Of a stretch of DNA of 64,000 bases, positions 7,001 through 47,667 are shown piece after piece. Every line of letters begins with the position of its first letter. Within the stretch, counting starts at the first letter, position 1. Under the pieces are notes generated by a model. That model did no database searches. It saw nothing but the letters and a program-made list of their open reading frames with translations, and was not told the DNA's origin. The stretch covers positions 1,984,501 through 2,048,500 of the forward strand of contig OY979730.1 of assembly GCA_963855995.1 (NCBI GenBank). Reading direction: 5' to 3'. The DNA comes from Muricea muricata. Its lineage: Eukaryota; Cnidaria; Anthozoa; Malacalcyonacea; Plexauridae. The translations under genes and the position numbers were made by a program.

Positions 7001-7830
7001 CCAGTTGCTTAACATGTCTAAAAATTCAGTATATTTTCCGATTTTAATATTCTGTCTAATATTCTGCCTAAGCCTCCCCGTCAACTAACTAATCCCACGT
7101 TTTTTTCAAAATGTTGATGATTGAAATAACAAAATCTATCGCTGCACTTTAAAATCGGTAGAGCTCCCCTGGAAACCCATGTGTCATGCGGTGTGAACAA
7201 AAATCTTAACACAAATATTAATTAAAATCTACGAAGTATTTACTCGCAATAAGACCCGTTAATATGTTTTTAATTATCTATCAATGTCGCAATTACTGTA
7301 CACTAATTGAAAGTGATGACGAGATAATTAAAAAGCAGGAGTCGTTGATTAAAAAAGTACAAAATTAAGGAGACATGACTATTGATGCGAAAATCGTTCA
7401 GTATCTAATTGTAGTTCAAATAAAGAATTTAACATAACATCCCTGGAGATATTTTCAAAAGCAGTTAAGAAAAGTTTGTTATAAAACGAAGCGGTAGTTC
7501 ATAACCTAAATCCGAACTCGTGGAGTAAATATTGGTAGACTGCAAAAATTCAAACTGCATGTACACAAAAACTAAAGCTTAAACATCTTCTGATTTCTAG
7601 ACCTCGTAACGTCAATTCGCACGGAGCTAAACGAGTACGGGGAAATGCACCCGGCAGTTGGTCCCCAGGCTGAAGAGGCTGCGCACACTTTCTCCGATTT
7701 ACCGCTGGACGCAAGCAAAGCAGAAGAGATAAAGACAAAGATTCGCAAGCGATCGGTGGACGCGAGCGAGGAAGGCGAACAGGAGTTTTTATCCGACATT
7801 CTTAAAGAGCATTTTAAACTTAATCCGTAG
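1..7830 (+). CDS. Secreted mucin-like SEA/WSC-domain protein, 5'-partial, 17 exons visible
   Basis: Exons by splice sites and phase: 1-27, 181-1236, 1818-1930, 2389-2447, 2523-2665, 3058-3210, 3544-3810, 3960-4100, 4180-4227, 4419-4442, 4592-4663, 4874-5020, 5426-5644, 6096-6211, 6324-6372, 6469-6660, 7601-7830 (TAG). About 1,017 residues are visible; the N-terminus and any signal peptide lie off the left edge. Order: Thr/Ser/Pro-rich mucin-like stretch, octapeptide repeats GV(P/A)GV(A/G)QP, poly-Gln tract, SEA-like domain (1818-2665; contains KRVYETMKEFD and VGVKFTVKF), basic linker, WSC domain with eight Cys (3544-3810; GCYKD, WCLHTC, CFCG, FCG), Asp/Glu run, then a long charged tail with dibasic sites (three KRSV, one RRSRRS). 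WSC domains bind carbohydrate and SEA domains occur in glycosylated extracellular proteins, so an extracellular matrix or mucus role is inferred. The SEA cleavage consensus GSVVV is not seen (RGKVGV instead), so self-cleavage is unlikely. Most introns are phase 1, as in extracellular modular genes. Orthology not recognised. Confidence 0.8.
475..565 (+). repeat. 24-bp coding repeat, octapeptide GV(P/A)GV(A/G)QP
   Basis: Units of about 24 bp (ggtgtagcacagcccggagt type) occur three to four times in frame and give an elastin-like Gly/Val/Pro/Gln octapeptide. The DNA copies are nearly identical, so expansion is recent. Confidence 0.85.
954..1074 (+). repeat. CAG/CAA repeat encoding poly-Gln
   Basis: Alternating cag and caa codons encode about 30 consecutive Gln, followed by a Y-G-interrupted Gln stretch, inside the 181-1236 exon. 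Regular CAA interruption is typical of a length-stabilised coding repeat. Confidence 0.9.
1237..1817 (+). other. Intron without recognisable feature
   Basis: Intron of the SEA/WSC gene. It contains several copies of the words aacaagttt and gcttgttg, a diffuse repeat also seen near 22020-22160, 22620-23000 and 28870-28980. No gene was seen. Confidence 0.5.
2020..2345. repeat. Foldback/MITE-like repeat in intron
   Basis: The left part begins aggggctagttgtttaaaag and the right part ends gtacaaccagctcctga, an imperfect terminal inverted repeat. Internal words (ccctgggttaaagt, aaatcactatccggtggata) recur near 24070-24450, 55145-55240 and 58205-58300, so this is one dispersed family. Confidence 0.6.
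2448..2522 (+). other. GC-AG intron in the SEA-encoding region
   Basis: The exon ends aaaatcag and the intron begins gcaagt, the classical GC donor context, ending in tttgacag. Only this junction keeps the SEA-like frame: phase 2 out, and the next exon resumes with EDRGKVGVKF. The GT alternative at gtgaag runs into a stop in the next exon. At 75 nt the intron is very short. Confidence 0.75.
6661..7600 (+). other. Last intron of the SEA/WSC gene
   Basis: Apart from the foldback at its 5' end and a word shared with the 2.2-kb repeat (gataaaaagtgactttaactc), this is plain AT-rich intron. No additional exon was seen. Confidence 0.5.
6731..6891. repeat. Foldback element with tRNA-like core
   Basis: The arms gagaacaac...ttcgttgtct and agacaacgaa...gttgttctc form a long inverted repeat. 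The left half on the minus strand looks like a degenerate tRNA, with an A-box region (tctcaattggtagagc) and a B box (gttcaaatccc). The anticodon arm does not pair as a normal five-base stem. Most likely a tRNA-derived SINE copied into a foldback, in an intron of the SEA/WSC gene. Confidence 0.6.
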
Positions 7831-8036
7831 AAATCATAGAATGGTATAGAAAGCTGAAGGCATTATAAAACCTTAATTCTTCTCTCAATTTAATACCGTA
7901 GACTTTTCGATGCTTTCAAGTCCATCAGGAATGAATCAAGAAACATTTAACAATCTAGATATAATTTTTAAAATAACTGCATGGTGTATATCAAAGTTAA
8001 CATGTAAAGTGTAATTATTAACTTTTGCTACCTTAG

Positions 8037-8170
8037 GTTTAAACTCTTCTACTGCGCAGCTTGAACTAGAAATGCAAAAGCTCCAGGTTTACGTTTTGCA
8101 AACATTACCAAGTGGAGCAGATGTCACATTTGCTTCAACTGTTGACCTTTGTCACAAGAAAATTCATTGA
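8037..8170 (+). CDS. Possible alternative terminal exon of the SEA/WSC gene
   Basis: After a good acceptor (gctaccttag) there is an open frame of 43 codons ending TGA at 8168-8170, with a polyadenylation signal 45 bp later. Entered in phase 1 it can be joined directly to the exon ending at 6660, skipping 7601-7830, and would replace the C-terminus with a Leu/Gln-rich helical tail (QLELEMQKLQVYVLQ). Transcript support is unknown; it could also be fortuitous 3'UTR. Confidence 0.35.
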
Positions 8171-12345: not shown

Positions 12346-14363
12346 CCATAGTTAACAAAGCTTAAATAGTGCGTTGATTGGTCCAATGTTCGGTATTTGT
12401 ATAAGCTAAAAAAATTAGGTACCGGTTTTTTGTTTTTGAAAGATGGATTCTAGTCTTTGGAGTTTGATTATATGCAGGTGCATCCTAATTATATATCGTA
12501 CTGTTTTCCATGCATAAAGTGGCTTGCTTTTAAACTTTCATTATAATTTTGATACCTAATATCGCCAGAAATAATTGCAAGAGATATTTTGATTCTTGTA
12601 GGAACTAGCAAAGTAATCAAGAATCCTGTAGGGAGTAGCATATTCTTCAAGCGAGTCACTTGCAAAAGAGATAACCGGAGTAAGTGTAAACAAAAAGTTT
12701 CAGTTTGTGATAAAAAAAAACGAGCGCGAGTTTCTGCGGAAACTCGTAACGAAACAGAACAACTTACTGCAGTCAAACTTCGTTTTTTGAAGTTTTAATA
12801 TATACATTGCTATTTGTAGCCAAATGCAATAAAACATGCATTTCTAGATTTTCCAGAAAATGAGATTTATATATATACTCCTGCATCTAATTTACTCGTA
12901 TATGAGGTACTATTTAAAGTGGTTTATTTGTATAAAATAACAAGAGCTTATTATAGTAATAAAGGAGCTTATATAGTTAGCCATTGCCATTTTAGTTAGA
13001 ACTCGCGGGAGAGTTGTCGGGCTTGGTGAAGCAAATTATATAGACTCTTCTCGTACATAAGTCACTTTTATAAGAGAAAGAGAGAACTTAAAGGTCGTAT
13101 ATCGCGGCAAAGATACCTCTGTCTTTACAACGGATTTGTTCCTGCCAAAATTCTAGAGACAGAGTTCTTTTTATTATCTATTATAATACTTCAGTGTATC
13201 AAGAATACAAAAGATTTTAAAAATAGATATTCTAATATTCCACAAAACAGCTATAAAAATTACTTTTAACTCAAAATGTTATATAATTACGGCGATAAAT
13301 TTCTAAGTCTCATAGTGCTTTAATCAAGCGCTGCATTTTGTACAAAAATAGGACGGACGTCGCTCATTACAGTATTTTTTCTCGCTAACTGTGGCGTTAA
13401 AACCGAGGCGTTACCGTAGTTGAAGCCCTTGTCATACATCCGTTGTTAATTACATGCAATGATGACCAGTATGTGTCATGAATAATGCAGGACGCTGTGA
13501 AATACTTACGGCCAAAAAATGATTCAAGGACTTAAAAGAAAACACAAAAAAAATTGACTGAATGCCTAATCGTCGACGAAGAGCTTTTATTTTTTTAAAA
13601 CCGTCTCAATCTTTCATAATCAGATATAGTTGAGTCCTCTTATTGCGCAGATGTTGTTAATTGCAACGCAAGGATCAAACTATCCATTAACAGTTCTGTT
13701 GATTAGACTCCAAACAGGTCTAGGAGTTTACTGTACGCCATTAAGGGGGCCTCACACACCGTCTTGACAAATAAGCAGCCTCGTTTCCGGGTCCCCATTG
13801 TCTTATCCAGATCCACGTAACTAGCGTCGCACGTGGCAAGCAATTTAGCATGCACAAAATCGGCAAATGTGTCGAGATTAAAGCCCCGTGCAGACAAATA
13901 GCTTTTCCTTAACAATTTTCTTGACGAGTTCACTTACGCGTCTCTACGACGAACAAGTTTTCCGTGACGGGATTTTTTGGTTCCTGTGTACGCGAAATTT
14001 GATAATATTTTTTCTTGACCACTTTTAGGAGGCCGTATAAATTAAGTACGTAAACAAAAATTCCGGTCCCTTGTCAAGTGTTCCTTGTTGCACGTACACA
14101 CGAGCAAGTTTCCTGGTCGAAAAGCTGGTACGACTAGCTTTTGAACCAGGCTCCTTGTCAAGGAAAAATTGTCAATTTTTTTGCGTACACACAAGCAAAT
14201 AAAGGAAACTTGTCAAGGAAAACTTGCTCGTCTGTACGGGGCTTAAGACATTCTTTAAAAAGTGCCATCTAAGCAAATAAAAGATGGTTCCCTTGGCTAA
14301 AGTGTTTACTGAATGTCGTGAACATTGATGATAGCTTTTAACTCTTTTTTCTAGTTGTAAGAG

Positions 14364-16256
14364 ATGGGTCTTCAAGGCAACAATCCGGGCACATATTTCG
14401 CCTTCTCGATGATAGTTATCCTCTCGTTTCTCGGGAACATGTCAGTACTTGGTGTAATGGCGATCAAACGCGGTGCACTTCAAAAACCGTACAATATTTT
14501 CATCTGTAGTCTGTCCTGTACCGATATCATTACGGCAATGTTCTTAATCTTCAGTCGCTATCTATACCTTCCCAACATGCCAGAGAACGACGTTGCAGCC
14601 GCACTGTTCTGTAGTACAATCTGGAACGCGTGTATCTTGTTTGGCCTCGGTTATGTTTCCATTTACACGTGCCTTGTTCTCACGTTTGAGCGATGGCTGG
14701 CAGTGGTGAGGCCGAATGTTTACCGGCAGATGAAACCAAAACACGCGTTTGGTGTGGTTGCTGCTGTCTGGTTCTGGGGGTTGCTTATTCAAGCAACAAC
14801 TCTTTTTCGAGCAAAACCCGATTTTGAACTAGGTTTGAAGCATTTGCGTGTTTCGGAGAGCTTAGCAAACAAGCAAGCTAGGAAACATTGTTTCCCAAGC
14901 TTGGTATCTCAGGTGGAAACATTGTTTCCCAACCCTGTTTCTTACAAGTTACAAACATTTTGTCCTGCCAATCTTTTCTAAATTTGGACACAAGAAAAAC
15001 TATTTCCCAATTATATTTCCTGAAGGTGGACAAACCAGGAAACATTGTTTCCTAGTCATGTTTTATGAAGGTGGACAAGCTGGGAAACATTGTTTCCTAG
15101 CCATGTTTCATGAAGGTGGACAAATCCATCAAGAAACATTGTTTCCTAGCCATGTTTCATGAAGGTGGACAAATCCATCAAGAAACATTGTTTCCTAGCC
15201 ATGTTTCATGAAGGTGGACAAATCCATCAAGAAACATTGTTTCCTAGCCATGTTTCATGAAGGTGGACAAATCCATCAAGAAACATTGTTTCCTAGTCAT
15301 GTTTCATGAAGGTGGACAAATCCATCAAGAAACATTGTTTCCTAGCCATGTTTCATGAAGGTGGACAAATCCATCAAGAAACATTGTTTCCTAGCCATGT
15401 TTCATGAAGGTGGACAAATCCATCAAGAAACATTGTTTCCTAGTCATGTTTTATGAAGGTGGACAAACGATCTTTCCGTTGCTGTCTCTTCCAGCAGTTT
15501 TTAAACCGTAATACGGGAACCTCTGAGTATTTTGATAAAATACAATATACAACGGAAACTCCGAAAATTGACAACATGATAAACTTTTATTTCTACGTTT
15601 CGACTATTCTTTATTCATCATCATAGAGAATAGTCGAAACGTAGAAATAAAAGTTTATCATGTCGTGAATTTTCGGAGTTTCCGTTGCATTGCATTTTAT
15701 AACGTATTATTTACATGTCTCTTTAGGAACATGCAAGTGGGTAAAACTAAGTATCGGCGAAGGACCTTTTCCGTACATTGACATGACATTACAGTGCATC
15801 ATTCCTTTCTCCTCAATGGTTTTTCTGTACTTGCACATGTTGTACAAAGTAAAGAAGATGCCGTATTTGCTGCAAGGTCGCGGTGCAAACATTACAAAAC
15901 GAATAACAATCCTAGCTCTGGCTGCATCGTGTGCACTCATTATCGGTTGGCTTCCTAGTCGGGTGAGCTTCATGCTTAGCAAACTGAATCTCAACGATGC
16001 CAACGGCTTGACGCATTTTTGGCTGGTCGTCTTCTCGTTTGCCAATTCGTTCGTCAACCCGATTCTCTACGGGATCTACAGCTCGGAGTTCCGCAACGAT
16101 TATAAAGCGCTGTTGATGAAGATCTTGTGCCGCAAGGGCGCCAGCGTCTGGCCTGCGGAAATGTCGCAGAATGAAACTGTGAACTGTGTTACCGTTCGTG
16201 AGGTCAAAGAAGCTGAGCAACCGAAAGAAGAAGAAAGCCAAGCCAAACCAGTGTAA
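14364..16256 (+). CDS. Class A (rhodopsin-family) G-protein-coupled receptor, neuropeptide-type
   Basis: Coding exons 14364-14832 and 15727-16256, joined in phase 1, give 332 residues. An in-frame TAA just before the ATG and an acceptor-like tttttctag upstream suggest a preceding non-coding exon. Seven hydrophobic segments carry family landmarks: N25 in TM1 (LGN), D54 in TM2 (LSCTD), C83 at the top of TM3 with C159 in extracellular loop 2, E109-R110-W111 in place of DRY, G230-W231-L232-P233 in place of CWxP in TM6, and N267-P268-xx-Y271 in TM7. The N-terminus is only about 11 residues; the C-terminal tail is Glu/Lys-rich. Signals through heterotrimeric G proteins at the plasma membrane by family knowledge; the ligand cannot be read from sequence. 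The fold resembles the expanded invertebrate neuropeptide-like receptors. Confidence 0.9.
14870..15475. repeat. Minisatellite in GPCR intron, 49-bp unit
   Basis: From about 15118, roughly seven near-perfect copies of a 49-bp unit containing atccatcaagaaacattg, tttcctagccatgtttc and atgaaggtggacaa; older, more divergent copies precede it. The unit is essentially that at 41171-41390 in a NEK9 intron; relatives occur near 3270-3440 and 23380-23480. Confidence 0.9.
15550..15687. repeat. Foldback element, about 60-bp inverted arms
   Basis: The left arm (caacggaaactccgaaaatt ... cgactattct) is repeated inverted as agaatagtcg ... aattttcggagtttccgttg around a short ttattcatcatcat spacer. A MITE-like hairpin 40 bp before the second GPCR exon. 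Confidence 0.9.
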
Positions 16257-17236: not shown

Positions 17237-20200
17237 ATGGCGGCTGTTCAACAGCCGGAAAAATACGACGAAAATACGACTCCAGTTCAGGAACTACATG
17301 ACAATACTAGACCGATATCAAAAAGCTTATCGTCCACGAATTTGCTTTCCGTATCCGCGTCGTCAAACGTCCAGCGTTTAGTAGTTGTTTCTTCAAAAAT
17401 TAGGCAGCCGTCAGCTTTGGAAACCGCCGCTTTGAACGGTGTTAGGATACTTATTTATCAACAAGATTCCGAAGACCTGCATACCTTGATTTTAAAAATA
17501 AAGGATGCTTGTTCTCGAACGAAGCCTGTCAGTATCGCTTTTTTGGCTCACGGACACCCAGGGAGTATGGTTTTATGTTCCCTCAGAGGCGAAAAGGTGA
17601 GAGAATCGGCAAGAAGGGAAATATTTCTTAATTTAGACAGATGTTAAAAGTAATTACTCTTGACCATTTTCACTTTTCTAGATAAATTGTGTTCACAAGT
17701 ACCGGCCCCAGAACACCTTAAAATAGTTCTCCTTTTAAACTTGGTTGCCTATTAACTTGTTTGTCCCGGTAACTGTTTGATTTTACAAACAATTTGCGTT
17801 AGCAACATGCACATCTTACTACAAGAAACATGCTTGGAGTGATTAATTTCACCTGTTTGCGTTGAGTAAATAATCTCAAACACTCGGAGTAGGTTAAGCA
17901 GATGTTAATATGTAAATATTAAATTGAATGTGCATAACTCTAAGGCCAAGATCGAGTTTTTCGCCACGTCTGCTAAATTATCCCTGGAAATTGAAGGGTG
18001 TGTTTTTTGGGATCCTTACAATTTTTAATAGCAATAATCGGTTTTTTAAATATTCAGGGCTATGTTTAAACTGATTAAAACTATCTAAACACACTGTGCC
18101 CAGAGGCATATTAATATTGCCCTTGACCATACTTATACAACCTCTTTGTTTCGTGGTGATTATTATGCTTTTTTAAGGGAAAGTAGAAGTCTGCAAAATC
18201 TGTACAAGAGGCTTTCATTATACCGTGTTTATTAAATGTTATTCACACACAAGTGCATATTCTGAGTTTATTTGAGTTTTGCATTAGATGAGACAACAAC
18301 TCGCACTAGACACCTCAATATTTTGGACCATTTCCAATACCTTTATGAAATATTCTCTTTTAGGAAATAAGATATTCTTTAATCCATTAACCCACACTCC
18401 TGGACAAGTAAAAATGTGTTTTGTATGGCAGAATAAATCAGTACTAAAATAAATCATTTATGGAATAGTGCAATTTTGGCATTAAAAATTGCTGCAATTT
18501 TTGACAGAAACTGATTTTAATTCATATAATTAAATGTATTCACATATAAATTGTTCCAAAGTAGGACATCTTATTGCTCAAATTATTTCCCCCATTTCTC
18601 AGTCCTAGTGTTATTTTCTCTTTCTGGTAGATGTTAATGAGGGGGATTATTAAAGAATGTTCTGAGTGCACGCTTCTGAGTGTAATGTTGGTTAAGATGG
18701 TCTTGGGCCAATTTATGTGGTGTAAGATGGGTTAAGATGATGTAAGGTGGTCTAAGGTGGTTTTAAGTAGGCTAAGGTTGTGTGAGGGGGTGTAAGGTGG
18801 CCTAAGATGGTGTAAGCTAGCTTATCCTGGAGGGCTAAGGTGGTTTGAGGTGGTGTAAGATGTGCTAAGGTGGTCTAAGTTTGCCTGAGGTGGGCTAAGG
18901 TAGTCTAAAGTGGGCTAAGGTGGACTGATTTGGGCTTAAGTGCTCTAAGGTGGACTTGTGTGGGCTAAGGGAGGGGGCTAATTTAGTCTAAGGTGGCAGT
19001 AGGTTGGCTAGGGTGTGGGCTAAGATAGGCTAAGAGAGGTTAGGCTGAGGGCTTTAAAAGTAGGCTAATATTAGCTAAGGTGGTCTTGGGTTGGCTAAGC
19101 TGGCCTAAAGTGGTCTCAAGTTGGTTAAGGTAGTCTAAGGTGGACTATGTTTGGCTAAGGTGGACTAAGACTGTGGTATTTTTTGTTCATTGATAAGCCA
19201 CCGAACCCAAATGCTTTCTCTCATGAACATTACTAACATCCATCAAAAGAAGATGTTTGTGCTAGTGTTACACTTTATGTGTATTATTTTCACAAACAAA
19301 ATTGTTATATTAGAGTAACCTTACACCAAAAAGCTTCCCTTATTAAAATATATTGACACTGTCTTGTTGAGTTTCTCATATCAATCCCATAAAGGCCCCT
19401 GAAAATCCATCAAGTACCACTGCAAGTTAAAATGAAGCACACATTTTTATGCAGGTGCTGTCAAAACCATCACTAGAGGAAGATGAAGACATTCGGAATT
19501 TTTTCAAAGAAGTTGGAACGTTTATTGATCGAAGTGATCCTTCAGCAAGACTTGATTTTTTGTCATGCCCTGTCATTTTATCCGCAGATTGGGAGGATGT
19601 TGTTGCAGAGTTGGAGACCATTGTGGAGGTTTGCACTTTGTGAATGCCTTTATTGTTTGTGTTTATTGCACAGTTAAGCATTGAGGACATGGACATGGCC
19701 ATTTCCTAGACTACGTGCATGAATTGTTTGCAGATACAGTGCAACAGAGATCACCAGTCATCAAACATGTAGTGCAAGTGACATTTCAGCATTTTTCTTA
19801 AAGATATTGAGGCATCTCAAATATGTTTTCATACTCCAATTTGACTTGATTGATTAAATCAATTGATTGCTTGATTATTTTGTTAGGGGTTGAATATTAA
19901 CATGACCAAAGACATCATGGGGCCAGAGGCATCTGGAAAGAAACAATCAAATTCTGATGATGGTGCAAGGTGACTACAAGCATTGCATCAAGAGAGATTA
20001 TTGTTTGGTGAATAAATTAACCTGTGTGTTTTCATATAGTTGTGAACCTGGAGACCTCTACTTCCAGTCAGAAAAGCTCAGAAAATGGTCCGGTGCAACG
20101 CCAAGAAGCATTAGTAATTTTGAAAAAATCAAAGTGGTTGGAAAAGGTGAAGAGTTCATTTGGGACTGTAAACAGCTAGTAGAACATGGTGCAAATTAGA

Positions 20201-23200
20201 GCTTACTACTCTCTTAATTTAAAACATTGCTTTGAGGAATTTTTTGAATCTTTCAAAGATTTGAAGAAATTTTCAATCTAATAGACTATTTTTAGATTTA
20301 TTTCTGAAAACAATCCCAAAAAAATTGAAAATTCAATCCATTAGATTGAATTTTCAATCGTTTCAATAAAGAGAGTATTCGCAATTTACGAATGTGAATT
20401 AATTCCCTTTTGGTGAACGTGAAGTGTTGATGAGTGGAATCAGAAGATTGCGCAGAATATTATATTGATATTGGCCAGTTATTTATATGGCTTTGGTAGA
20501 ATAAATATGAGAGCCCAAAATGGTTTTTAACGAAGCCTTTGAAACAATAGGATTTGAAAGAAATTTACCAGTTACGTTTCGTGTTTGTGTTAAAGACGGA
20601 ATGTAATAGCCTAATAGGATAAAACTTTTCCGTTTTCCATTTTTTGATGGCTTTAGTTCTAAAAGTCACGTTGGGCTCTCAGATACCTATGTTGGGCTTA
20701 TATATTCATAATAAAAATCTGATTTCACCTGGCAAAATTTTGACTACGGTAGTATGGCATTTAGCAGCGAAAAATCCTTGCATTGTTGAAACCATGGACT
20801 TGGGAACTAATATTAGTCGATTTACCAACTGTAGGAGCTTATGGAGCGGCTGTTCTGTATCGTAAGAAGGACGACGATTCCTTGGTTATCTTGAAAGAAA
20901 TCAATATGCATGACCTGACAGCACAGGAAAGACAGCTAGCAACAAATGAGGTATGGTTGTGCATTGATATTATATATAGCATGCACAATTAAAAACCTTA
21001 TAGTTGAGTAGTCGTCGTTGCTTCAGGGCTCTCTAATTAATATTGTTTTGGTTCTGAAAAATGTACAGTTCTCCGTGTCTAAACACAAAATCAAGTGAGC
21101 CATACTTACAAATCAGAGTATGAAAATCACTAGAGGGCTGTCACTGCCCTCTGGTGATTTTCATGCTCTGATTTGTACCGACTGGCGAGGCAATATAATT
21201 TTATCACACATTATATCATTTTGAAAGTTATAAAACTGACATGATTATGCGTGTTTAAATGAATTTTCGTCACTGCTCCACATCAATTTCAGGCCAAGAT
21301 AATGTCCAAGCTGAATCATCCAAACATCATCAACTGTTATGACAGTTTCGAGGAAGATGGCACAATTTGGATTGAAATGGAATACGCTGATGGAGGGTAG
21401 GCACCAATATGACTGTCTGTCTTTTGTCTTTTTATTTTATCATTCTACGCGCACATTCAAAAGGATCAATGAAGTACAAACTTTAAAAAATGTTGAAGGC
21501 GTAGCCAGGATTATACTTAATGACTTTTTGGGGCATTCTCTGGTTTGAAAGCTTTATTATTTGCGAGCTTTCCACTGCCAGTCTGCAGTCTTCTTCCAGC
21601 ACTATAACCCGTCGAAAACTGCAGACTGGCAGTCGAAAGCTTGCGAATAATGAATATTTCAAACCAGAGAACGTCCCAAAAGTCTTTAGGTACAAACTTA
21701 TCGTATATTTCTTTTGTTTTTAGGACTCTGGCACAACATTTGACAAAACTGGACAAAGAGATGGAGGAGAAAGAGATCTTAAGAATGTTTCATGAAATGG
21801 CGCTTGCTTTACAATGCATTCATCAACATAAAATTCTACACAGGTACCGGAGAGATATGCACAAGACTCCTTTGCTTTTTAAACAATTTCTTTGTTTGAG
21901 ATATTAGTTTCAGACAGGTCACGCACAAATCACGATATCGCGCAAATACTATTCACCATAGATACATTTGAGCATACATGCAGCGTCAGAAACTCACAAG
22001 TTGCAGGCAGAATGCGTTCACATCGCTTGTTCCGGCTTAATGAGAACAAGTCTTCTGCAAGTTATCAACAGGCTTGATGCAAGCTCGACGCAAATTGTTT
22101 CAAGAGCTTGCAGCAAGTTTGCAAATATCAAGTTGCATCAAGTCTGACTTTCACAGACTTGACACCACTTACTGGCGCCTGTTGGCTTGATGAAACTCTT
22201 TAAAAAAGCTTGCACTATCGGGCGGGTAGAATATTCAAGTTCCATCAAGTTTGTATCGTTTTGTGGCTGTTTAAACGTCAGTTCATCACTTTCCGTTTCC
22301 ACAGACAACGCAATTACACTTAGGCTGGCTAGTAAATACAAAAAACGAATCAGCTTCAACCGCTTAATTTATTTCTAGGGACATGAAAACGCAGAATATA
22401 TTCCTAACACTGGAAGGCCACGTAAAGCTGGGAGATTTTGGTATCAGTAAACAACTTGGTAACACGAGAAGCAACGCAAACACCGTCCTCGGAACACCTT
22501 ACTACATCTCACCCGAGATTGTAAGGATTAGGCTTTAGTATTTATTCAAGACTGTTCATTATTTACTATATCTCTAACGATCTTTATTTGTCCGCAAATA
22601 CGCAAGTACTGCACATGTAAAATCCCACAACTTGTGCTCAGCTTGTCAACAAGTACGCCCTGCTTGTCCCAAGCTGCCAACACGGCTGTTTAGCACAGCT
22701 TGTAAAACCCCTGTCATACGATGCACATTTTCTTGAAACTCGCAATGCAATTCTACCCTTGGGAGATGTAAAATTGGCAAATACAAGTTTCCATCACAGT
22801 TCGCTTCTATATTGTTAACATACCAAGCATTTGTCACAAATTGACATCTTTTAAGAGTAGAATTGCGTTCCAAGTTGCAAGAAAAATTGCACCCTGTGAC
22901 AGGGCCTTAAAGAACTTGATATCAGACTTGTTGTAAACAAGCTTGTCTCAACAACTCGGATACACACCTGTTGTAACAAGATTTTTAACAAGTTAACAAC
23001 ACAAGGCTATAAGAAACTCTATTTTTTATTGTCTAGTGTGAGGGCCGAGATTATAACGAGAAGAGCGATATTTGGTCTCTGGGATGCGTGCTCTATGAAA
23101 TGGCAAATAAACAGAAAACGTTTGAGAGTACAAACTTGCCCGCACTTGTAAATAAAATTGTTAAGGTACGATGCAAACGCTTGTTACTGTGCTCGCATTC

Positions 23201-26200
23201 GTGCGTACGCATGAGCGTACCTATTTTTTCATATCTCAACATCTGTTCTCTTCTTATACAGGGCCAGTTTGCTCCCATCCGTGGAAATTACAGTCAAGAT
23301 TTTAAAGCTTTGGTATGTGTGTTACTGCTCACGTGCTTGAAACATGTTGGAAAATTAAAGGGAATCTTATAGAAGCACAACATCAGTTGGGAAACATCTT
23401 TTTCTTCCTGAGAAGCAAATTTTGTCTCCGCAACAGTGTTTCCCGAGATGGACAAGCAAGGAAACATTGATAGCAAACTTAACGTTTCCGCAGCAGTTTT
23501 TGCTGTTTCGCCGCGGGCTTAAAACGTTCATTTGTTTACAGGTTCGAGATTGTTTACAAATTGAGCCCCAGTACAGACCTGATGCATCCGAATTAGTAAG
23601 AAGAGTGAACAATGTAAGTCATCAGTGGGTGCTAGCGAATTCTGTTCAGTTCAAATTTTGACCGTTCGTGTCGTTGTATTTGCAGCTGCTTTGCCAGTTT
23701 GACGAGTGCGACGAGGATTCATTAGAAAGTGCTCTCAATCCAAAACGAAAAGAAAAACGAAGGTAATTGAGTGCGCGTACTTTGTGCAGTACTCAAGAGA
23801 AATTGACGATGAAATTCTGGCTCGGCCATAGCATGTTACATGCGTTTCCCGGAGTTGATGGGTGTAGATACATTTTCTTTCCAAAAAAGCTGTATGTTTT
23901 TGTTGCTATTTTTGTTTTAGATCCATTCTTTATTATGTTGATCTGGGATCGATGTCAGCGGTAGTTCCGATTGACCTTCCTGTACGAATTGTCATTGTAG
24001 ATGTAAGTGTACGTTAAACAATCTCACCAAGCGAAGTCGTCTCTTGGAACGAGTTATTCAAAGCTGGGTTATCGCTAACCCTAGGTTAAAGTGTAATCTA
24101 CTGTGTTTTAATCTCTGTATTTCGACACGTCCGTTCATGTCAAAACTTCAGAAAGCAAAACTGCTTTGGACCTGATGTGTTTTCTGAAATAAAGTATGTC
24201 CAAGTTTATAACAAGTTGCTAGATATTTTCATTTAAATATGACATTAATCTGGTGTTAAATCAAACTGTTTTTGAAGAGTTTTTTGATCGGCCCCAATGA
24301 TGCAGGGGCGGTTGTTCAAAAGCCACGTACCTTAACCCTGGGTTAACATAAACTTCCAAAGAAATTTTGTAGCAACGTATTTAGAAGCCTCGAAATATTT
24401 CTTCAAAAATCTGATCTGGATCAATAGCAGTTTTGGTTTCTGAGGTTTTGAAGGGAACAGACGTGTGGAAATACAGAAACTAAAACATGTGGGTTAAACT
24501 TTAAATTTCCTTGGTGGAAACGAAGCCCAACTACCTGTTTCTTCTTGTTTTTTAGGTGAGTGTTGGTAAAAATCATGTTTGCGTCGTCACTGCAGAGAGC
24601 ACAGTGTTCACTTGGGGTGATAACAATAAAGGTCAACTCGGTCATGGAGATCTGGTGTCTAGGGATATACCGACCCAAATCGAGGGCGTCAAAGGGAAGA
24701 ATGTTGTGACGTAAGTACCCAAGGAATATGATTCAAATTTTCAAGGCAAACTTTGCTACAATACTCCCATGCGTTGGTACCATCACCCAGCGAATAGTGA
24801 TAATTGTAATTTTTGTACATAGATTTAACCGAGATCTTCTCGGATAGACTGAACTTTTGTTAATAATGCTAAGTTCGTATTCCTGTAATTCCATAGCTGT
24901 TTGTGCAGTACTTAAAAAACGACCCACCTTTTCAGTTGAGTCGCGAAGTTATTTTGAAAATTAACATTGTTTACCAGCCCAACGTTCCCCTCGAATACTC
25001 GAACCTGACACAAAGGCACTTATATGATTTACTTGAATTTTTGCTTTGTTTTGAACAATCAGGGCTTGTAGTGGCGATCGCTTTACAGTTTTACTGACAG
25101 ATAACGGAATTGTGATGTCATTTGGTGATGGCGATTACGGCTGTATGGGCCACGGTGATTGGTCGAGTGTTTCCCGCCCAAAGTTAGTCGAGGGTTTGCT
25201 GGCTGTCGACACAGGTAGCCTAACCTGTGGTCCACGTCACGTGTGTGCTGTGTGTGACGATGGCAGTGTCTACACGTGGGGCTGTGGCACTGACGGGAGA
25301 CTGGGACTAGGGGATGAGGACAACAGGTTAGTGAAGAGGCTATGATGGGTTTTATCTTTATATATTATTAGTTTACGTTCGCAAAGTATTTTACTGTATA
25401 GTGCCGTCAATTTTCCAAGCTGTTTTTTTAAAGGTCTGGTGAGGTGATTTTGTTCTAATGCATTGCTATACCGAAGAGTCAAGCAAAAAATATCGAAACA
25501 ATTTTTTGCAAAATTATGAGCATAGTATGCTAAATCGACCATTCACGTATTAGACAAACTTTTGAATTCGGAAAATCAATTAGCACAGTCGGGAAAGAGC
25601 ATCCAAATTTCATACAACATATATTTTCGACGTTTTACAATGTTTTGCAACCAAACTTCACAATTTCGCTAAATTCAGGAGGCTCTTTCCAACTGTGCTA
25701 AAATTGTTTTTGAATTTAAAGGTTTGTCTAATTGGGGAATGCTCCATTGGGGAGTCGTATAGTCTAATGTTCTTTGCAAAGTGTTCAATTTTGTATTTTG
25801 TTAGAAAAACTCCTCAGAAAGTCGAGTTTGGAGATAAAGTAAAGATCATCAAGGCAAGATGCGGTGTGGACGGCACGATGTTTCTTACAGATACGGGAAC
25901 TTTATACGCTTGTGGAAAGTAAGTGGTTTATTCAAGAGTATAAGCGAGGTGGGAGCGACAATAAATGGAGGAACTCATTTAAAACGTTCGACTAAATTTC
26001 CGATCTCCCCCCTCCCCCTTGAAATATTTAGCGTGATGACAGGTCTACATATCAGTATTGCCTGCGAGTTTACGGTCCTCGTACCCGGCGTCTTTAACCT
26101 ACGCCCGTTTAAGACCCTGGGTACGAGGTTGCGAGTTTACCAACTCTGTTTGGACGAACAAAACTTTGGTTTCTCATCAGGGGCTGGTTGTATAAGACCC

Positions 26201-29200
26201 TTAATCACTTCTTTAATCACTGTTTTGTAGTTAAATAGTGATTAAGTACAAAATACTTTGTCCTCATTGGTTGACGTTTTCACCAATAAGAACTAATTTT
26301 AATCACTTTTTTATACAACCAGCCTCAGGCTACTATCAGGATATTTGACTGATAGTTTGTTCACTTTGTTTTTCAGGAACACAAACAACAAACTCGGCCT
26401 GAACAACAGACAAGGTTTTCTAGTACAGATGAAAAATCTATTGACTAAAGTAAGAACTCCTTCGTGTGTTTTTCCTAGGAAAGTATAGCACTTTAAAGTT
26501 TGCGAATTTTGTGTACTTTCGTAATTTGTGTTACGCGGGAAAAGTCATAGTGGGAACGCTTTTCCGTTCGTAATACAAAAGTACACAAAATTTGGAGAAT
26601 TTACACGACTATATTTTCCACATGTTACAATATTTTGCAACCAAACTTTACAATTGTATAAAATTTAGAATGCTCTTTTCAGCTGTGCTAATTGATTTTC
26701 CGAATTTAAAAGTGTGTCTAATAGGGAAATGGTCTATTGACACATAGTTGTATTTTAAACCGGCAACGTTTCCTTATCACAGGTGCAAGTTGAAGGACGC
26801 AATACGCCGACGCCTCTGAAAGTTTTGGCGCGCCACAGCGTCTCGAATATGTGCCTGGGTCCGACCCACAGCTCTGTGCTCATGGACTCCGGACATCTGT
26901 ATACATTTGGGGATAATAGGTATGGTCAACTGGGACTTGGTAACGTCAAGACGGTGGAATCTCCGGCTTGTGTCAAGTCCATGGTCGGCAAACATGTTAC
27001 GGTAAGCATCAGGTCATGTTTATTCTCAAGCCTCAAGCAATATATCCATACTTGATCTAGTGTTGTAATAGCCAGTGTGGTCATATCTCAACATTAATAG
27101 TACACGAAAGGTATACCTTTCGTGTACTATTAACTGCACTGCCTACACTAGCAACGTTAGTGAAGTTAGTATTCAGGTAGTGAAAGAACCTATACCTTTC
27201 GTGTACTATTAACTGCACTGCCTACACTAGCAACGTTAGCGAAGTTAGTATTCAAGTAATGAAAGAACCTGTACCTTTCTTGTGGCACTAACTGCACTAC
27301 CTACACTAGCAAAGTTAATGAAGATAGTATTCAGGTAGCGAAAGAACCTATACCTGTCGTGTAATGATGCACTACCTACACTGGCAACGTTTGTGAAGTT
27401 AGTATTCAGGCAGTGAAAGAACCTATACCTTTCGTGTAATACTAACTGCACTACCTACACTAGGAACGTTAGTGAAGTTAGTATTCAAGAAGTGAAACAA
27501 CTTATAACTTTCACGTAATACTAACTTCACTACCTACACTAGCAACGTTAGTCAGGCAGTGGAAGAACCTATACATTTCGTGTAATAATGCACTACCGGC
27601 ACTGACCCGTTTACACGAGCAATTGTTGTGTGACAATTTTCCTTTGCACATAAAAACTGGCAGATCAGTTTTCCAGCAAATGCATTTGCTGTCACATGAA
27701 ATTTGCTCTTGCAAACGGGGCTTGATCTCACGTGAATTTATGCGTTCATCATTCATAACTTCATCCCTGTTTCTCACGCAGATGATGAAGTGCGGGGATT
27801 ATTTCACGCTAACTGGGACAGACGAGGATACGATATATTTCTGGGGAAGCATGCCTAACATTCATACGCCAACGATCGAATGTTGTGACGAGATTTCACC
27901 GAGATCCGATGAAACGTTAGAAAAGAAACATCGCCGAAATGTGAGCGCCAGTTTAAGTTCTGGAGCGTCCGAGAGCGTGACGACTTCGCCCAGGTAAGCA
28001 TGGCAGAGCATGGCAGAGCTTGGGATGTTGGAATTCCAAAGGTCATACCACGCCCACTTTTAGGACACAAGTCAATTTCGGTCTATAAAAACGTCCATAT
28101 CTCCGCCAAAGTTTAATGTACAGCTCTCAAACTTAGCATGGCTGTACACCAAGTACTCCTGCCAATTTCTGGCCAAAAACAGCTCCTGCACGATTAATAT
28201 TAAAGTGGCTCTGACTGGTCAAACATGGCCCCAATTTTAGCGATTGCAACCGCGGTCAGACAAATTTCTTAGCTTGCCTCGTGTAGATATAAACTCAGAG
28301 CAACACCACAAACATAATTTTCACCTGCATAACACCAATAATAAAACCACACGTTCAATACAACCGCTCATATTGTAAACATTACATAGCAGTCAAAAGT
28401 CCCAACTATAGAAATATATTTCCTATCTAAGTAAGTGGTAGAAACTTCTGGTTTGTGAAAGTGAGGATGGGGAACGAGGCTGTCACCTCCGCCCCGCCTA
28501 CCCTCGGTAAACCTCTGTGAAGGTGTGCTAACACCTTGACGTCCTTTCTAGACCCACCTCAGCGCGGTGCGAGGCTTGTCGGACCAGACCAAATTCCGGT
28601 GCGGACCATGATCAATCGTTATCTCGAAGAAAGGACACGTTTTCGGAGAGTGCGAATGCAAATCTTACTGTTGATGGCAAACCTGGGTGAGAAATTATGT
28701 TATTTTCAGTTATTTACTGTTCCCGCGCAACAATCTCTTTCTCTTAATGATTGTGAGAAGAATACTATACTGTAGTTATTAGAGTTGATTTCAGTCAAGC
28801 ACCAAAGGATTCCTCAGTTGCGTCCATAGCACCCTTATCCAATTCATATGAACGATAGTTCAGGCGTAATATTCACAGACTTGATGCAACTTGAAGAAGC
28901 CTGTAGTATTATTGCAACTTGATGACAAACTTGTATCATCAAACTGTTGAAATCCACAACTTGCATCTGTGGCTTTTCTTGCTGGGTGGATGTAACGCTG
29001 AAATAACGGAGTTAGTGCAGATGTCCTTTATGTAATAAACTGGGAGTTCATCATTCTCTAAGAAGCAGTTCAGAACTTACCATAATTCGTGTAAAACCTC
29101 TCTCGTAGCTCTGCAAACAGCGAGCGACCACGAAGTGCTTTCTTCCGATCGTATCCTGGTAACTATCTTCGCGATTGTGCGTTGCGGAATGTCATGTCTT

Positions 29201-32200
29201 CTCGCTGTCGCATAGAGGGCTGCCTTCGTCTGTCGACGTGTGAACCACTCTCTTCACCAAACCTCCTCTTCCAGTGGGACGCGATTTGCGGGCCGAGTGA
29301 AAAGGACGGCGACTACCCAGTTTTTCTCAGGCGGATTGCGGGTTACGGTGCAAACATGTTCGTGCAAATTGACACGACTGCGCCCGCGTCCCGTAAGAAG
29401 TCGAAGCGAAGGTCGACCAAACGCGAGGACGTCCCCCCTGATCAACGTCGGCCCACCTCTGACGTTAACCTCAAGAAACAGGGGAAGCGTGATCTGGATG
29501 ATTCTGGTACCGGGTAAGCTACATTCTAGCTCTCCGTTTTTTCTAGCGATAATTTTGTAAATTGTGGAGATCCACAGTGGGTCTTCCTAAGTATTGACAA
29601 ACTCGCATCAAGCCAATAGGCTTTGTTAGTGCTTTACATGTGTGTATGTATATATTTAAATTTAGCTTGCAGCCAAAGGCTGGATTACGTAAATTACAAT
29701 AAGTGTCTACTTATATAGTATAAATGCTTACAAAAATGCTTAACCGTAAAAAAGGCAATACTACTATGAAATATCGAAGAAAGCTGAATTGTATCTAGAA
29801 ACTCTAAGAATGAACAATATTGACTAAGATTATGTGTATTACACATCGCATATATGAAGGAGTTTTTTACTCTGTGGTTTACTCCAGTGGACCTGACCGC
29901 GCAGCTCAGTTGGCAGAGCATTGGGCTAGCATTGCAAAAGTCCTAGGTTCGATTCTCACCTTGGTCAGGCTTATTAGGGGAGGTAGATGGGAGTTCTGGT
30001 TCTGCGAGGGGGGGGGAACAATTTCATTGGGAACAGGGGGTTATCCCTAATCGGTGGGTGTTAGATTCTATAACCTCTATAGAAAATGTTTTTCTAAAAT
30101 TTGGCAAAAATGGTTGCGTATTTAGGCCTAAAGTATGGGCAGAGAGGAAAGGTTAGGAAATGGTTACTTTGAGAAGATAAGACAGGCAGAATTGCGCCAT
30201 AAATTCTCAGCATTTTGTTTTGATCACATACCGTGTACTTTGTAGTTTTCGCCGTCATACCGACTCGTCTACTGCCGCAGAGCAATCCAGTTCATCTGAA
30301 ATGGACACCATTGGTGACGTAAGTTGGTTTTTTTAAGATTTTTCGAAAATTTGTTGCGAATATCGTATTTCGAAGAAGCAAAAATAACTGCCCATCCATC
30401 TTTTCCGCTCGGGAAAATAAGTTTCTCCAAAATGAGAAAGGAAAGAAATGTTTTCTTTGCCTCGTCTCAGTTTAAGTTATTAAAACTCTTTGATGGTGGC
30501 AGTTTGTGGACAGTTATTAAAACTCTTTTGCAGCTTGTAGGCTGAATTAACGCGCTTAATATAAAATTATTAATGAGAAGAGAGATTATACAATCGATGT
30601 TGGGTAAATACCAGCCTAAAATGATCTGGCCTTGTGATTGGCCTTTTGAAACAAAAGTCATCATTGTTTGTGATTTGTTCTTTTGAAAACCAATTTCTAT
30701 AGTTTATTGTCATTCATTGTTATAACCAACCAACCACTTACAAAGCTTGTAGTATAGGTTGGTGGCGATCCTAAATGTTTCATATCATTCATTGCAGATA
30801 TTATCATATCTGGAAGCCTGGATTCATAAGTGTTATTTTCGAAAATACTGTTTTCTGATTTTCCCGCCTTTTGAAGCCTTATAGTTATGAGCTGATTGTT
30901 TTTCGTCCCCAGGCTCCGACATGGCTAAAAGATGAGCTGAAGGACGGCATTGGCCAGGGTGCAAACTTCGCGGGAGAAGATGATGACGGTATTTCTTCCG
31001 TGGGTGAAAGTGCCGGGGCTATGAGCGACCAGGAGTCGGACGAAGAAGTCTTCATCAAACCAAAGAAAGATGTCGCGACAAAAAAGCCGGCGATATCGCA
31101 GGAAAAAACCTACGCCAAGTACAGAGCGAAGGCCAAGGGCGTCGCCGAGAATAAGATTGTTGGAGGTGTTGCCATCGCAGCGCCTACTGGTGACGCCAGC
31201 GCAAACTCGAATTACGGATCCTACGAATCTAACACGGATACAAACGTGAGTCCAGTTGTAATATTAAGTACAGAGCCAGAAACGCCACCGCCTTCATTTG
31301 TGGACTTTGCTTGCACCAAGCCTGCTGTTTCATCAGGTTGCATCAAGTTTGTGAGAATCGGACTTGATGCAATTTGATATTAGCAGACTTGTTATTGACA
31401 AAACTTTCGTGAACCTTGTTTGTTATCGATTTATCATCAAGCCGTGGCAAGCGATACGAGCGCATCCTCACATCGAATCGGCCATTGCAGTGCAACAAGC
31501 CCGCTGCAGACTTCCTGCAGTTGAGCGTTTCTCGCTTGTAGTATGGTAGTCTAGAGTCGATAGATACCTCAAGAAAGACGAGTTACAAAGTAGTAAACAA
31601 TTTAGTACTAACAAGTAAACCTGAATACAAAGCTTAGTAGTATTAAAAGACTATTACTTTAATGTAGATTCGGTTTTGCAGTAAGAATAGTCAGCTAAGT
31701 CAAGTACAGCATAGATATCAAGCAGAACAGTTCAGAACTGCTAGCTACGGCAGAAATCAATGTGTACCGCAATGATTCTGGTGCCTTTCCTTATAGGGTG
31801 TAGTTTTACCAGGTCAAGTGCCCGCAGAAGGTGCCCAGTCTGCGCAGGCGCGTCAACCGCGCCGAAAACGGACCAAAGGACAATTAAACTCTGTGGACGT
31901 GTTTTACCAGCCGGGCGTCCCGTTGACGAAGCGCAGCGGCGTAACGGCCAGTCTTCGTGCCCCTGTCGGCACCGAGAAGTTGCGTCCTTCGAGCGTCACG
32001 TCGGAAAGTGGAGTTGAAATGACGCCTTTTGAACAGCGCGGCCCTGGAGAGGTGAGTTTGGGGTGGATTTCTATTTGTTTTGTGTTTATAAAACTCTTGA
32101 GGGGTTGCCATGACAAGACGTGTCGCCATCTCACGTTTCGAGTACAAATCCTCGAGACAGGCCTAGCTACGATATTTCGCAATCATAACTTGCGTCCGAA

Positions 32201-35200
32201 AGCGTCTTCAACTCAGTGTCAACTTGTATGTTACTCGCTCGATTCTCCCACGGCGGCTGTAGTATTCCGGTCGCAAGTCGTGTCCAAATCGTGGCTGCTT
32301 TTCACTTAGTTATAAATACCAACCCTGCGGTGTGGATTACCGCACGACTAAGCGCTTCGGATGTGTTGAAATGAGTGTGGACCAAACATTAGGTTGTCAA
32401 GTGAAAATCGTTAAAGCTCTCTGTCAGAATAAATCTGACGCATTTTGGTCACTGCTGCCAAAGGGCAACATTAACAATTAGATGTCTTCTGAGCGCGTAT
32501 GTACTACTGCTTTATACATCCTTTGTAAAGCAGTATTAATCTGAGAAAGTGTCGCACGTTCGTGGAAAAATGACGCCAGCACCCGTGCAGAAAGAGAATC
32601 CAGTCAAGGTATGCATAGGCCTAACATTGAGGATGACTGTCATTGTGGATTCCTTATTTCTTCCGCTGTTGTTCTTCCTTTTTATCGAAATCCGCTTGTT
32701 TGAAAGACTTGGTCTGTGAGTTTAACATCGCCTTTACAGCTAGGATAGTTCAAAACACTTGGAAATATGTTAAGACCAAGAAAATCTACTGCTTTAGATC
32801 ACTTTTCCCTTTAAATTTCTGGTCTTCTCTTCTAGTCACTCCTTTTGCGCCATAAAATATATATATATAAGCTTTGAGAAGATTGATAAATTTCTGAGGA
32901 GATTGATAAATTTTAATAGGGTACGGTTTTTAGATGGCATTGAGAACTGTTGGAGTTTCGAAACAATTAACCTTGACAAATGGAGTTCAAATCGATTCAG
33001 TGATAGCAAAGATTGCGTCTTTCTGTTGTAGTACGGTTGTATGGTCTCACAAATAACATATAGCAACAGCAACTTGTTGATTTCCGAAGTGTTTTTTGTT
33101 CACGTCTCAATCGATCATTCGTTTCCGTCTTGAATCTCTAATCCTGGATTTATAGCTACGTAATTGTGTATCATTATAGCAACACGCGATTATTTTAAAT
33201 TGTACCGCAATTCCCTTGCGAAACCATCTGTCTTGCCAAGTAATTGTGGGAAAGAGCTGTACGAGTACATAAGCTAGGCTGCAAAACGACACCTGGTTTG
33301 GCATTAGAGAAGGTTTTGTGTGGCAAGAAGCAAGTTCTGTAGGTGCAGAATATTTGATCGAATTCATTCTTTATAAACGGCGTTTGTTCTCAAGCCGAAC
33401 AGGTAAAGCTGTTTATAAAGAGCTGATTTATAACAGCCTTAACAGGATATAACAACAGGATAAGTTTATAACGGCTTTACTGTAAAACTCAACAAGTTAA
33501 ACGTGTATAAAACTGTTTTATAACTCCAACAAATCTTGCGAGTGTACTTCGTGTAGTTGTTATATAGTGCACGTAAGGTATAGCGTATAGGTATGTATAG
33601 GTTCTTTCGCTGTCTGAAACAATGTGGCGAAAATCGACAGGTATTTGAAGAACTTATACCTTTCGTGTAACATATAAGACTACGAGTCGGCTACCAGTTA
33701 CCCAGTCTGACTGTTCAGTAACCTTACCAGTGTCGGTGGTGCAGTCAAAAATACACGGAGGATATGGGATCTTTCAGCATCTGAAACGATGCATCATAAT
33801 TCCACCTTCGTCGGGAAGTTAGTAAAGTCTTCGTCCTTCGCACGTGGAATTCTGTTTATCTTTTCAGATAATGAATGGGCCATGCAGTATAACTCATTAC
33901 CGTAGACCAAATTTTACGATATTTACTCGTGATGGTGTTTTGTTGTTCCTGGCTAATCGCCATGCATAAAACTTGATATTGGTATATCATTCGTGCACGG
34001 TCGGAATGAGTACACAGATTTAAAACGGAGAAGTGTAACGGTGAATACAAGTCTATCAAAACCACATGCCCGGCTCTTCACTCTGTCGAGGCTGAGCTAT
34101 ATGTATTTATATATAACCTTTCATGACCTTTTTGTTGTCGACTCGGCTGCTAAACTAACGCATGCTGTTTGTAGGGGCATTCATGTAAAGAAATAAAGAT
34201 TGCCACGCCTGTACTGGTTGAAACTGTCCAGGCGACGCTATGACATGTAAGCGTTGTCAAGTAGGTCTGTGTTTGTCTCCATGGCCGCTTGTCTGTTTTT
34301 GTGGGATGGCTTGACGAGTGACTTTGTAATTTAATATGCGATTAAAAGCCAGAAATATGTTTAATTTGGACAGATCAGGCTTATTGTCGGAGTCAAGGTT
34401 TTGACTTTGGGTTAAATGCGGTTCGATTGTACAGTTTGTGTATAAACGCACGTATTAGGACGGTGGATTCCATGTTTTTGAACTTAAAGCTGCGAATGGC
34501 TTGTATGAAAGGTATGGTATCATTTACTGTCGTCTTTGCTCGTCTAGACTTGCGTAGTGCTCGAAAATTTGGATCTCTCACTACCTGAAACGATATTTTA
34601 AGCAGAATTTCGCATTTCGAGAAAAGGCCCTTCGTCTTGAAGTTGGTAGTTGGCTATAAACTTCCCGCGAAGGACTTTCTCTCGAAACGTCGAATTCTGT
34701 TTAAAAAGTTTCAGTGGGGAAAGATCCTATTTTTTTGTGTGCTTTTGGATTGCACTGTCGACGCTGACAGCGTTAGTTCGAGGTGGAATTGCGAAGAGAG
34801 TTAGTTTGCCACGGTCAATGTTGTTCACTCGAAGATTTGCGTACGTCTTGGTTACAGTACAAAATAAAACAAATTCCGAAAATAGACATCTTGTATTCCC
34901 GATATTCAAGAAATGAACAACAAAAAAAACGACGGAGTCGGTGATATTTCCTCTTTATTCCAAAGACAGTGTCAAACCAATGACTCATTGTACTTCCATA
35001 AGTTGTCTGCGTGGTTTTTGGTTACAGTTGTTCAACAAATTGTCTGTTTAACGCACAGAAGCATTGCTTGAGATCTTGTGGGTAAAAGTCGAGCGTACAA
35101 GCTGGCACGAAACGCACGCTGCAATAGCAAATATACCTATAAAGTGTTATTGCTATAGATTAGATTAAGTTTGCCTAGACATTGTCTTAATTGGAGTGTT

Positions 35201-37844
35201 ATAGGCTAGAGTAGCGAATTTTGTTGAACGACTATTGCGTCTTCCAGAAATACGTGTTTCGTGAGATTTTTGAGCAGAAATATTTGGCTCGATAGGAATA
35301 CTTGAGTAGAAATATTTGCGTATAGTGTTGCGTGGGCCTAAACGAAGCTGCCTTGACATCGCTCCAGTTGTCAGAATTGACTTCCCCCTTGCCCGTTTGA
35401 AGTCCAGCTGTGTACATTTGTGAAGAAGTGTGTTTATGTGCGTGTAATGCTTTCGCCATTTAAACGCAAGCTTCACTTCTTTGTTTATAGGGTCGTATGA
35501 AACAGAATAAGGGGTAAGTTGAAGGACGACTTGAAAAATTTGACAAATTTCTTTAATTTGAAGGCAGAATGTAGTCATGTGAATTAGGTAATTATCTTAA
35601 GCATAGCGACGTTAATGAGTTCGTTGACAAAAGAAGAGAGAAAGCGAACTGTACAAGGAAATGTTTCGTTGTTGATTGTTATTTTTCTCTCTGTCCCGTT
35701 AGGATGGCTAAAAGCGTGCCAAGCAAGCGAGGGTAGGTGAAATGTGATCTGTGATGTTGCATTCCACGGTTCATACTCCTTGGCCTTGCCAAATCCTCTT
35801 CTTGAGGTCATTTTTGCTTTCTTTCCCTGCGATTTCTCCTTTTGACAGATGTGAACGAGTGAATTGATAAGAAACGTTATAAGTCTATAATATATCCTCG
35901 CCTGAACATTTCAAACCGTTTCACTCCGCTCATATCCAACAAAAGGAGACAGTCGCAAGGAAAGCCGTTATACACTGCATATATCCCCGTTTATCCCATA
36001 CCTTCCTAAACTTTAATTGTTGTTTATTCAAGATTATCCCCAAACTCTCCCAGGAAACCCCGAGTATCACCTAGTGGTATGAAAGCTTGGGAGAAACCAA
36101 CACCGACGGCGAACGAGGCGAGGTGAGGTCCAAAAACCAAACCATGTTCGGAAAACTATTATGTACTACGGCGACATGACATTAAGACAAGATTAAGCTC
36201 CTTTTACATGACCAAATTTTCTTTGACATATTTCATGTGTCATGTGTTTTTTGACTATGTAAATTAGGAATTTTCAAAAATTTGCCAAAAACTCCCAATT
36301 TACATAGTGAAATAACATTTGACACATGAAATTTATCAAAGAGAATTTGGTCATGTAAAAGGGGCTTTACATTTAAAATCAGGAATAGATCCAGTATGAT
36401 CTGGTGGGGGGAAAGGAGGGGGGGGGGGGCTCTGGCACGTGGAGGTTGTGTTTGCCTTTGTCATGTGTCACCAGCCCTAAAGGATACAGGACCGCACGAC
36501 CTAGTATATCAATACCTGTTTAAGTTTGCGTTGATCTCGAAGAGACATTCGAAAGGTCCTAGGTTCGCTTTCTTCCGTGGTCAGGTATATTTGTAAGCTT
36601 GCGCATTGTGAATATTATATAAAATTAGAGTCACAATAACACCACAAACATCATATGTTTTTATATGGCTCTCTTTGTGCACCAACAAACTGTACTTCTA
36701 TTTAAGTTCCTTGTATGTTTGCTTGGTGAATATAAATCTGAGTATGGTAAATTTACGTGATATATCCACAAAATTACACTCAAACTTTGCTTCTCCTGTT
36801 CTTCCTAGGCAAAGACCTGCTACGAGGACATCATCGAATGGTTCAATCCCAGCTAAACGCAGAGTGTACGTTATACCATCATATGTCGAAATTTAAGATA
36901 ATTTAGGAATTATCTTATTTTATCTTCTTTCATCTTCTTTCATTTTTCAGAGGCCCCAGGGATGAAAATAAAATAAAAATGCCAGCAATAGTGGTAAGAC
37001 TAGCTATATTTAGGCACCATCGCTTGATGATGTCATTTTCATCACGTGTTCATGATGTCATATCTTCATTTAGACTCCAAGTTCAGCTGCCAGAAAAGAT
37101 ATGCATGGAAAGAAAGAACTTACTCCGACTAAACAGCTCGCTAAGGTATGTCTCGCTATGTCTTCCACTCTCTCTTGGCTAGCTAGCCATCACATCAAGC
37201 AATGCTACGGAATAGTGCGAGTACCGCAAATATCTGGTAATCTGACAACACGGAAAACGGCTGGCACCATTTGCGAATATGTGTTTCACGTATACTTTAC
37301 CTTGTTGCCAAATTTTACCAGTGGAAATCTATATTAGATTTATGCTTGTCTCTACCAAACACAGTTACAAAGTTTTAAGATGTTAAGGTTAAAAGGCAGC
37401 TAAATGGATTTCTATACTTGGCTTTCACTATGCCATTATGTGGTTCCTGGTGGTGGTCAACCTTCAATGTATTAATGGTTGTGGTCTACTGATATGAAAT
37501 TGCCCACATTTGTCATTGAGGCAAAAATATACTAGGAACATTTAATCAACTCTAATGACTCTAATATGATAGAGAGCGCATTGTAGAGTGTCTAAACTGC
37601 CACATCCGAAATTTTTTTCGAAATTTTTTCCAAAATTTTTTGTCAAAATTTTTTCCCGAATTTTTTTTCAAAATTTTTTCCCGAATTTTTTTTCAAAGTT
37701 TTTTTTTCAAAATTTTTTTCCCAAATTTTTTTTCAAAATTTTTTTCCCAAATTTTTTGTCAAAATTTTTTTCCGAATTTTTTTTCAAGATTTCCCATTTT
37801 TTTTCAAAATTTTCCCCAATATTTTTGTCAAGTTTTTTTCAAGA

Positions 37845-37938
<94 letters not shown>

Positions 37939-38330
37939 TTTTTCCCTAAATTTTTTGAATTTCAGGGGAGAATTGATTAGTATGCCCAGCCATCTTGACC
38001 ACCAGACAATGATAAGCAATCCCTGGCGAAAATTTGTTCATGAAGTCATGAACTTTCATGGTCTGTTCATGAACGTTCATGAAATTTTTTTTTTTCATTT
38101 TTTTTCAAAATATTTTCCCATTTTTTTTTTAAATTTTTTCCCGAATTTTTTTTCGAAATATTTTCCCTAAATTTTTTTTCAAAATTTTTTTCCAAAATTT
38201 TTTTTCTAAATTTTTTTTCAAAATTTTTTCCCAAATTTTTTTTCAAAATTTTTTTCCCAAATTTTTTTCCGAATTTTTTTTCAAGATTTCCCATTTTTTT
38301 TCAAAATTTTCCCCAATATTTTTGTCAAGA

Positions 38331-38403
<73 letters not shown>

Positions 38404-38832: not shown

Positions 38833-38908
<76 letters not shown>

Positions 38909-47642: not shown

Positions 47643-47667
47643 TTATAAAGATAATAGATTTATGTAA

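Follow-up and report, generated by a model that had tools for sequence, protein, structure and literature searches.

The window analysed here, a 64,000-nucleotide stretch of the anthozoan Muricea muricata, corresponds to bases 1984501-2048500 of contig 15 in a searched genome of 453 Mb and 74 contigs, and carries on its forward strand a gene in which a domain of the DUF4347 family is encoded ahead of a NEK-type kinase and RCC1 repeats. The gene was mapped as 24 exons with GT-AG borders that stay open in frame from the ATG at 17237, which is preceded by an in-frame stop at 17210, to position 32051, where the mapping ends before the 3′ end of the gene. Its parts are as follows.

17237..17596, + strand: exon 1, a leader (residues 1-46) and the first half of DUF4347, with the His105 codon at 17549-17551 (Pfam match; 13 other sequences share the exon)
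19455..19628, + strand: exon 2, the middle of DUF4347, with the Cys158 codon at 19566-19568 (Pfam match raised by 3.7 bits; one relative, P0014)
19887..19969, + strand: exon 3, the portion of DUF4347 C-terminal to the Cys (adds 4.3 bits to the Pfam match)
20040..20146, + strand: exon 4, the end of DUF4347 (residue 224) and the start of the kinase (residue 233) (Pfam, splice frame)
20835..23613, + strand: exons 5-11, the remainder of the NEK-type kinase domain, with HRD and DFG present (Pkinase E=6.3e-63; best solved relative NEK1)
23686..27993, + strand: exons 12-19, a linker and RCC1 repeats of approximate extent (RCC1 E=2e-61, five stretches)
28552..32051, + strand: exons 20-24, a long tail (no Pfam match at E<=0.001)

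The first-pass annotation of this DNA had described a phase-consistent chain of four exons leading into the kinase, and its borders at 19628/19887, 19969/20040 and 20146/20835 hold both in frame and in their GT-AG signals; a further border that it lacked, 17596/19455, is likewise GT-AG and in phase. We infer all of these junctions from splice signals and reading frame. The assignment of the N-terminal domain to DUF4347, proposed in the same annotation, is borne out by profile search, in which residues 48-224 match PF14252 with E=2.5e-6 and 27.8 bits (cut-off 24.6) over profile positions 1-162 of 164. When profiles are compared with one another, the domain scores 29.5 against 85 bacterial members (best of 60 column shuffles, 19.1), and whole-domain alignments place H105 and C158 opposite the His and Cys of the bacterial proteins. 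The proposed fusion to a NEK-type kinase also stands: the exon at 20040-20146 codes for both the end of DUF4347 (residue 224) and the start of the Pkinase match (residue 233), is thereby the physical link of the fusion, and contains no in-frame Met.

The kinase domain spans residues 233-482 and is followed by the RCC1 repeats. With this order, shared with NEK9 and NEK8, the gene is a member of the NEK8/NEK9 class; the long tail after the repeats may hint at NEK9 over NEK8. Vertebrate NEK8 and NEK9 begin with the kinase domain, whereas the window gene has DUF4347 ahead of it. The window protein as modelled gives no F-box or RhoGEF match in Pfam and so does not qualify as ECT2L, the other animal protein with this domain considered below. 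Elsewhere in the genome, another NEK locus (C10) shows kinase similarity and no RCC1 similarity within the 10 kb examined; a second NEK8/9-class gene may be present, 94 of 360 kinase and RCC1 candidates having been scored.

Relatives of the N-terminal region are concentrated on exon 1. At E<=1 the protein search found 14 proteins; a search with an alignment as query found 15 at E<=10, of which two had not appeared before. P0001 is identical to the window across exon 1; once it and the weak P0016 are set aside, there are 13 relatives for exon 1 and a single one, P0014, for exon 2. In all 13 exon 1 relatives a Val follows the same residue at which the shared sequence stops, as would be expected if a conserved GT donor were read through (proteins only were compared, their codons being unseen). 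Of the 74 domain residues encoded by exon 1, 44 do not vary across 14/14 sequences, among them residues 101-115 with the AHGHPG block; the leader has 7 of 46 residues invariant in 13/13 sequences. P0016 is left out of this count, and the position of Cys158 is covered by two sequences only. When residues 40-245 of a 539-residue query were followed up, 0 of 996 candidates reached E<=10, and thus no intron-free, transcript-like relative was found among them. A protein search of the Muricea genome with the NEK-linked domain gave four matches, all of them exons of the window gene, and neither the exon 1 protein nor P0016 had a confirmed match in scans of IMG/VR. P0016 itself is a predicted protein of 156 aa that shares a 10-residue string at E=0.47 and in which Pfam detects no DUF4347; it may be an exon of a DUF4347-NEK relative from another animal group.

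A second animal setting of the domain is provided by ECT2L. In the ECT2L of PDB entry 11xu (11xu_A1), which we take to be human, residues 291-458 match PF14252 at E=1e-17, and a single-sequence search with the NEK-linked domain finds ECT2L at E=0.013. The Muricea genome has an ECT2L-like gene of its own (L101 4931-9672, on C6) with F-box, DUF4347 and RhoGEF matches, its DUF4347 scoring 21.5 bits, short of the 24.6-bit threshold. The window domain and that of ECT2L are collinear over 163 profile columns, and the closing segment encoded by exon 4 resembles that of ECT2L. Where the window gene has kinase and RCC1 repeats, ECT2L has an F-box and RhoGEF (observed in the own-genome gene), and both ECT2L copies lack the His and Cys that the window gene retains. 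Profile scores are 56.0 for NEK-ECT2L, 47.4 for ECT2L-bacteria and 29.5 for NEK-bacteria. By halves of the domain (100 shuffles for each comparison), exon 1 scores 37.2 against ECT2L (best shuffle 21.4) and 29.1 against bacteria (best shuffle 18.9). The half encoded by exons 2-4, which carries the Cys, scores 26.4 against ECT2L (best shuffle 19.9); its score of 14.9 against bacteria was reached by 4/100 shuffles and is not significant. The animal domain is thus probably older than the split of the Muricea lineage from vertebrates, and the NEK copy is probably a second animal branch in which the dyad was retained.

The structure model of a bacterial DUF4347 protein is caspase-like (clan CD), with a His just past strand 3 and a Cys just past strand 4, the strand-His, strand-Cys order found in caspases, CHAT, legumain and C80. 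Peptidase activity remains putative for DUF4347, in contrast to these peptidases, and the match of an approximate bacterial consensus to Peptidase_C80 is not significant (E=0.22). A PDB search with the bacterial profile picks up 9qpe_G (E=0.0024) and ECT2L (E=0.011), yet a designed protein follows at E=0.033. The entry 9qpe_G is Tce1, with which the window domain shares the family match and the positions of His and Cys; bacterial members differ from it in having no kinase, and excerpts of the Tce1 report present that protein as a secretion-system effector, unlike the NEK fusion (PMC13323088). Six plasmid-borne DUF4347 copies are annotated within large repeat or Ig-like proteins, and proteins named DUF4347 are listed in parts of articles on snail secretions (PMC6744689) and a green alga (PMC10451321). 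Plasmid searches by tblastn gave one match for the window domain (E=2), which fell in an Ig-like region and was rejected as not DUF4347, and one weak match for the ECT2L stretch (E=0.9). By analogy with the bacterial model, we infer for the NEK-linked domain a caspase-like fold with His105 and Cys158 as a dyad. Of the protease-like character suggested in the first-pass annotation, the fold (in the bacterial member's model) and the retained His and Cys therefore stand, and cleavage itself would be a prediction from sequence.

Taken together, the gene most likely encodes an old animal caspase-fold module that regulates a NEK8/9-class kinase, with DUF4347 at the N-terminus followed by kinase and RCC1 repeats. 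The computed basis of this reading is the domain match, the one-exon link to the kinase, the conservation of exon 1 and the better profile match to ECT2L than to bacteria. The Pfam score climbs as exons are added, from 17.6 bits (exon 1) through 21.3 (exons 1-2) and 25.6 (exons 1-3) to 27.8 (exons 1-4). Several results weigh against the domain match: exon 1 by itself and exons 1-2 lie under the cut-off of 24.6, and Pfam reports nothing for exon 2 by itself or for exons 2-4 together. A hidden Markov model built from the 85 bacterial members only, the partial match L065 being excluded, yields 10.4 bits and aligns the exon 1 part alone. In the comparison of ECT2L with bacteria, pairwise identities overlap, being 26% and 22% between NEK and ECT2L copies and 18-23% between NEK and six bacterial members. 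As to mechanism, the caspase-fold domain would adjoin the kinase as a regulatory module that binds a partner or ligand, or cuts a bound substrate or the protein's own linker or tail; binding is ranked ahead of cutting, and both are ways in which the module could work that are compatible with the regulatory reading. The protein may act in cilia- or microtubule-linked signalling, given that zebrafish ect2l knockdown affects motile cilia (PMC4199137) and a NEK8/9-like gene of Nematostella is expressed in the ciliated apical organ (PMC4300403), both as given in portions of these reports.

Close to an even call, if a little short of it, is the view that the domain is a pseudo-enzyme whose caspase fold does no more than offer a binding surface next to the kinase, as is probably the case in ECT2L, where both copies (11xu and own genome) keep the domain without His and Cys; an invariant AHGHPG block is, however, not explained by a scaffold alone. 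The same block (residues 101-115, 14/14) favours the rather doubtful alternative of an active cysteine peptidase, in which H105 and C158 would make up a functional clan CD dyad, cleaving its own protein or a kinase-bound substrate and acting as a switch. This dyad is kept in the NEK copy and lost from both ECT2L copies, Tce1 (PA0256), a DUF4347 protein of bacteria (PMC8262886), is described as a putative cysteine protease, and the C80 similarity of the approximate consensus points weakly the same way, although that match is not significant. The excerpted Tce1 report further states that a predicted-Cys mutant of its second effector, Tce2, which may or may not belong to DUF4347, loses toxicity to yeast, but that neither E. 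coli nor yeast was measurably affected by Tce1 (PMC13323088). The Cys, moreover, is observed in just two sequences, and the literature examined reports no activity for any animal DUF4347. Unlikely, too, is the stronger proposal of a kinase-protease, an old animal architecture that would unite a catalytically competent caspase-like peptidase with a NEK8/9 kinase in one polypeptide, which would cleave itself or its substrates as part of the control of cilia or mitosis.

It is improbable that this lineage recently acquired its DUF4347 domain from bacteria by capture, the origin put forward in the first-pass annotation. In favour of capture, a query with the approximate consensus matches 122 plasmid records and has 237 of 355 candidate prokaryote genome stretches confirmed, the overlapping identities do not separate bacteria from ECT2L, and the grouping of NEK with the ECT2L copies rests on scores, not on a tree. 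However, introns interrupt the domain, the ECT2L of 11xu and, more weakly, the own-genome ECT2L-like gene already demonstrate it in animals, and the profile score of the NEK copy to ECT2L exceeds that to bacteria (56.0 vs 29.5) even when a single ECT2L sequence is used (40.2 vs 29.5).

ATGs at 19957 and 19960 are open through intron 3 into exon 4, in a frame that differs from that of exon 3, and a kinase-only product may arise by retention of this intron. An origin of exons 1-3 in a separate gene or transcript is nonetheless very improbable, for although an ATG in the intron-retained frame could begin a kinase-only protein, the DUF4347 profile match spans from exon 1 into exon 4, the exon that also encodes the kinase start.

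Among the matches listed in the NEK, ECT2L and caspase-like kinase fusion literature, no title or abstract opening describes a DUF4347-NEK fusion, its absence from print being unproven. With this gene, an uncharacterised caspase-fold family becomes connected with ECT2L and with a kinase class that has been studied in depth, both of them cilia-linked. An active dyad would mean that a NEK kinase has a protease coupled straight to it, and a true kinase-protease would be an architecture that vertebrate NEK8/9 are not known to show. Comparison with the dyad-less ECT2L copies would directly test how far the function of the animal domain depends on catalysis.

Around the gene, two open frames on the + strand at 14361-16256 have similarity to rhodopsin-family G protein-coupled receptors (7tm_1 E=2.9e-17 and 2.6e-8) and stop about 1 kb 5′ of the NEK gene. 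A plus-strand scan of window positions 32001-50000 found no TQT motif of the dynein-light-chain type. Downstream of the own-genome ECT2L-like gene, a tandem repeat of ~216 bases, containing open frames, occupies L102 ~7010-8079. Other repeats were noticed by eye in the window: part of intron 1 (18670-19170) consists of a degenerate short repeat like GGCTAAGGTGGTC, the intron after 27001 holds an imperfect tandem repeat at 27090-27600, and three long (AAT)n runs lie within a tandemly recurring T-rich unit at 37840-38910.
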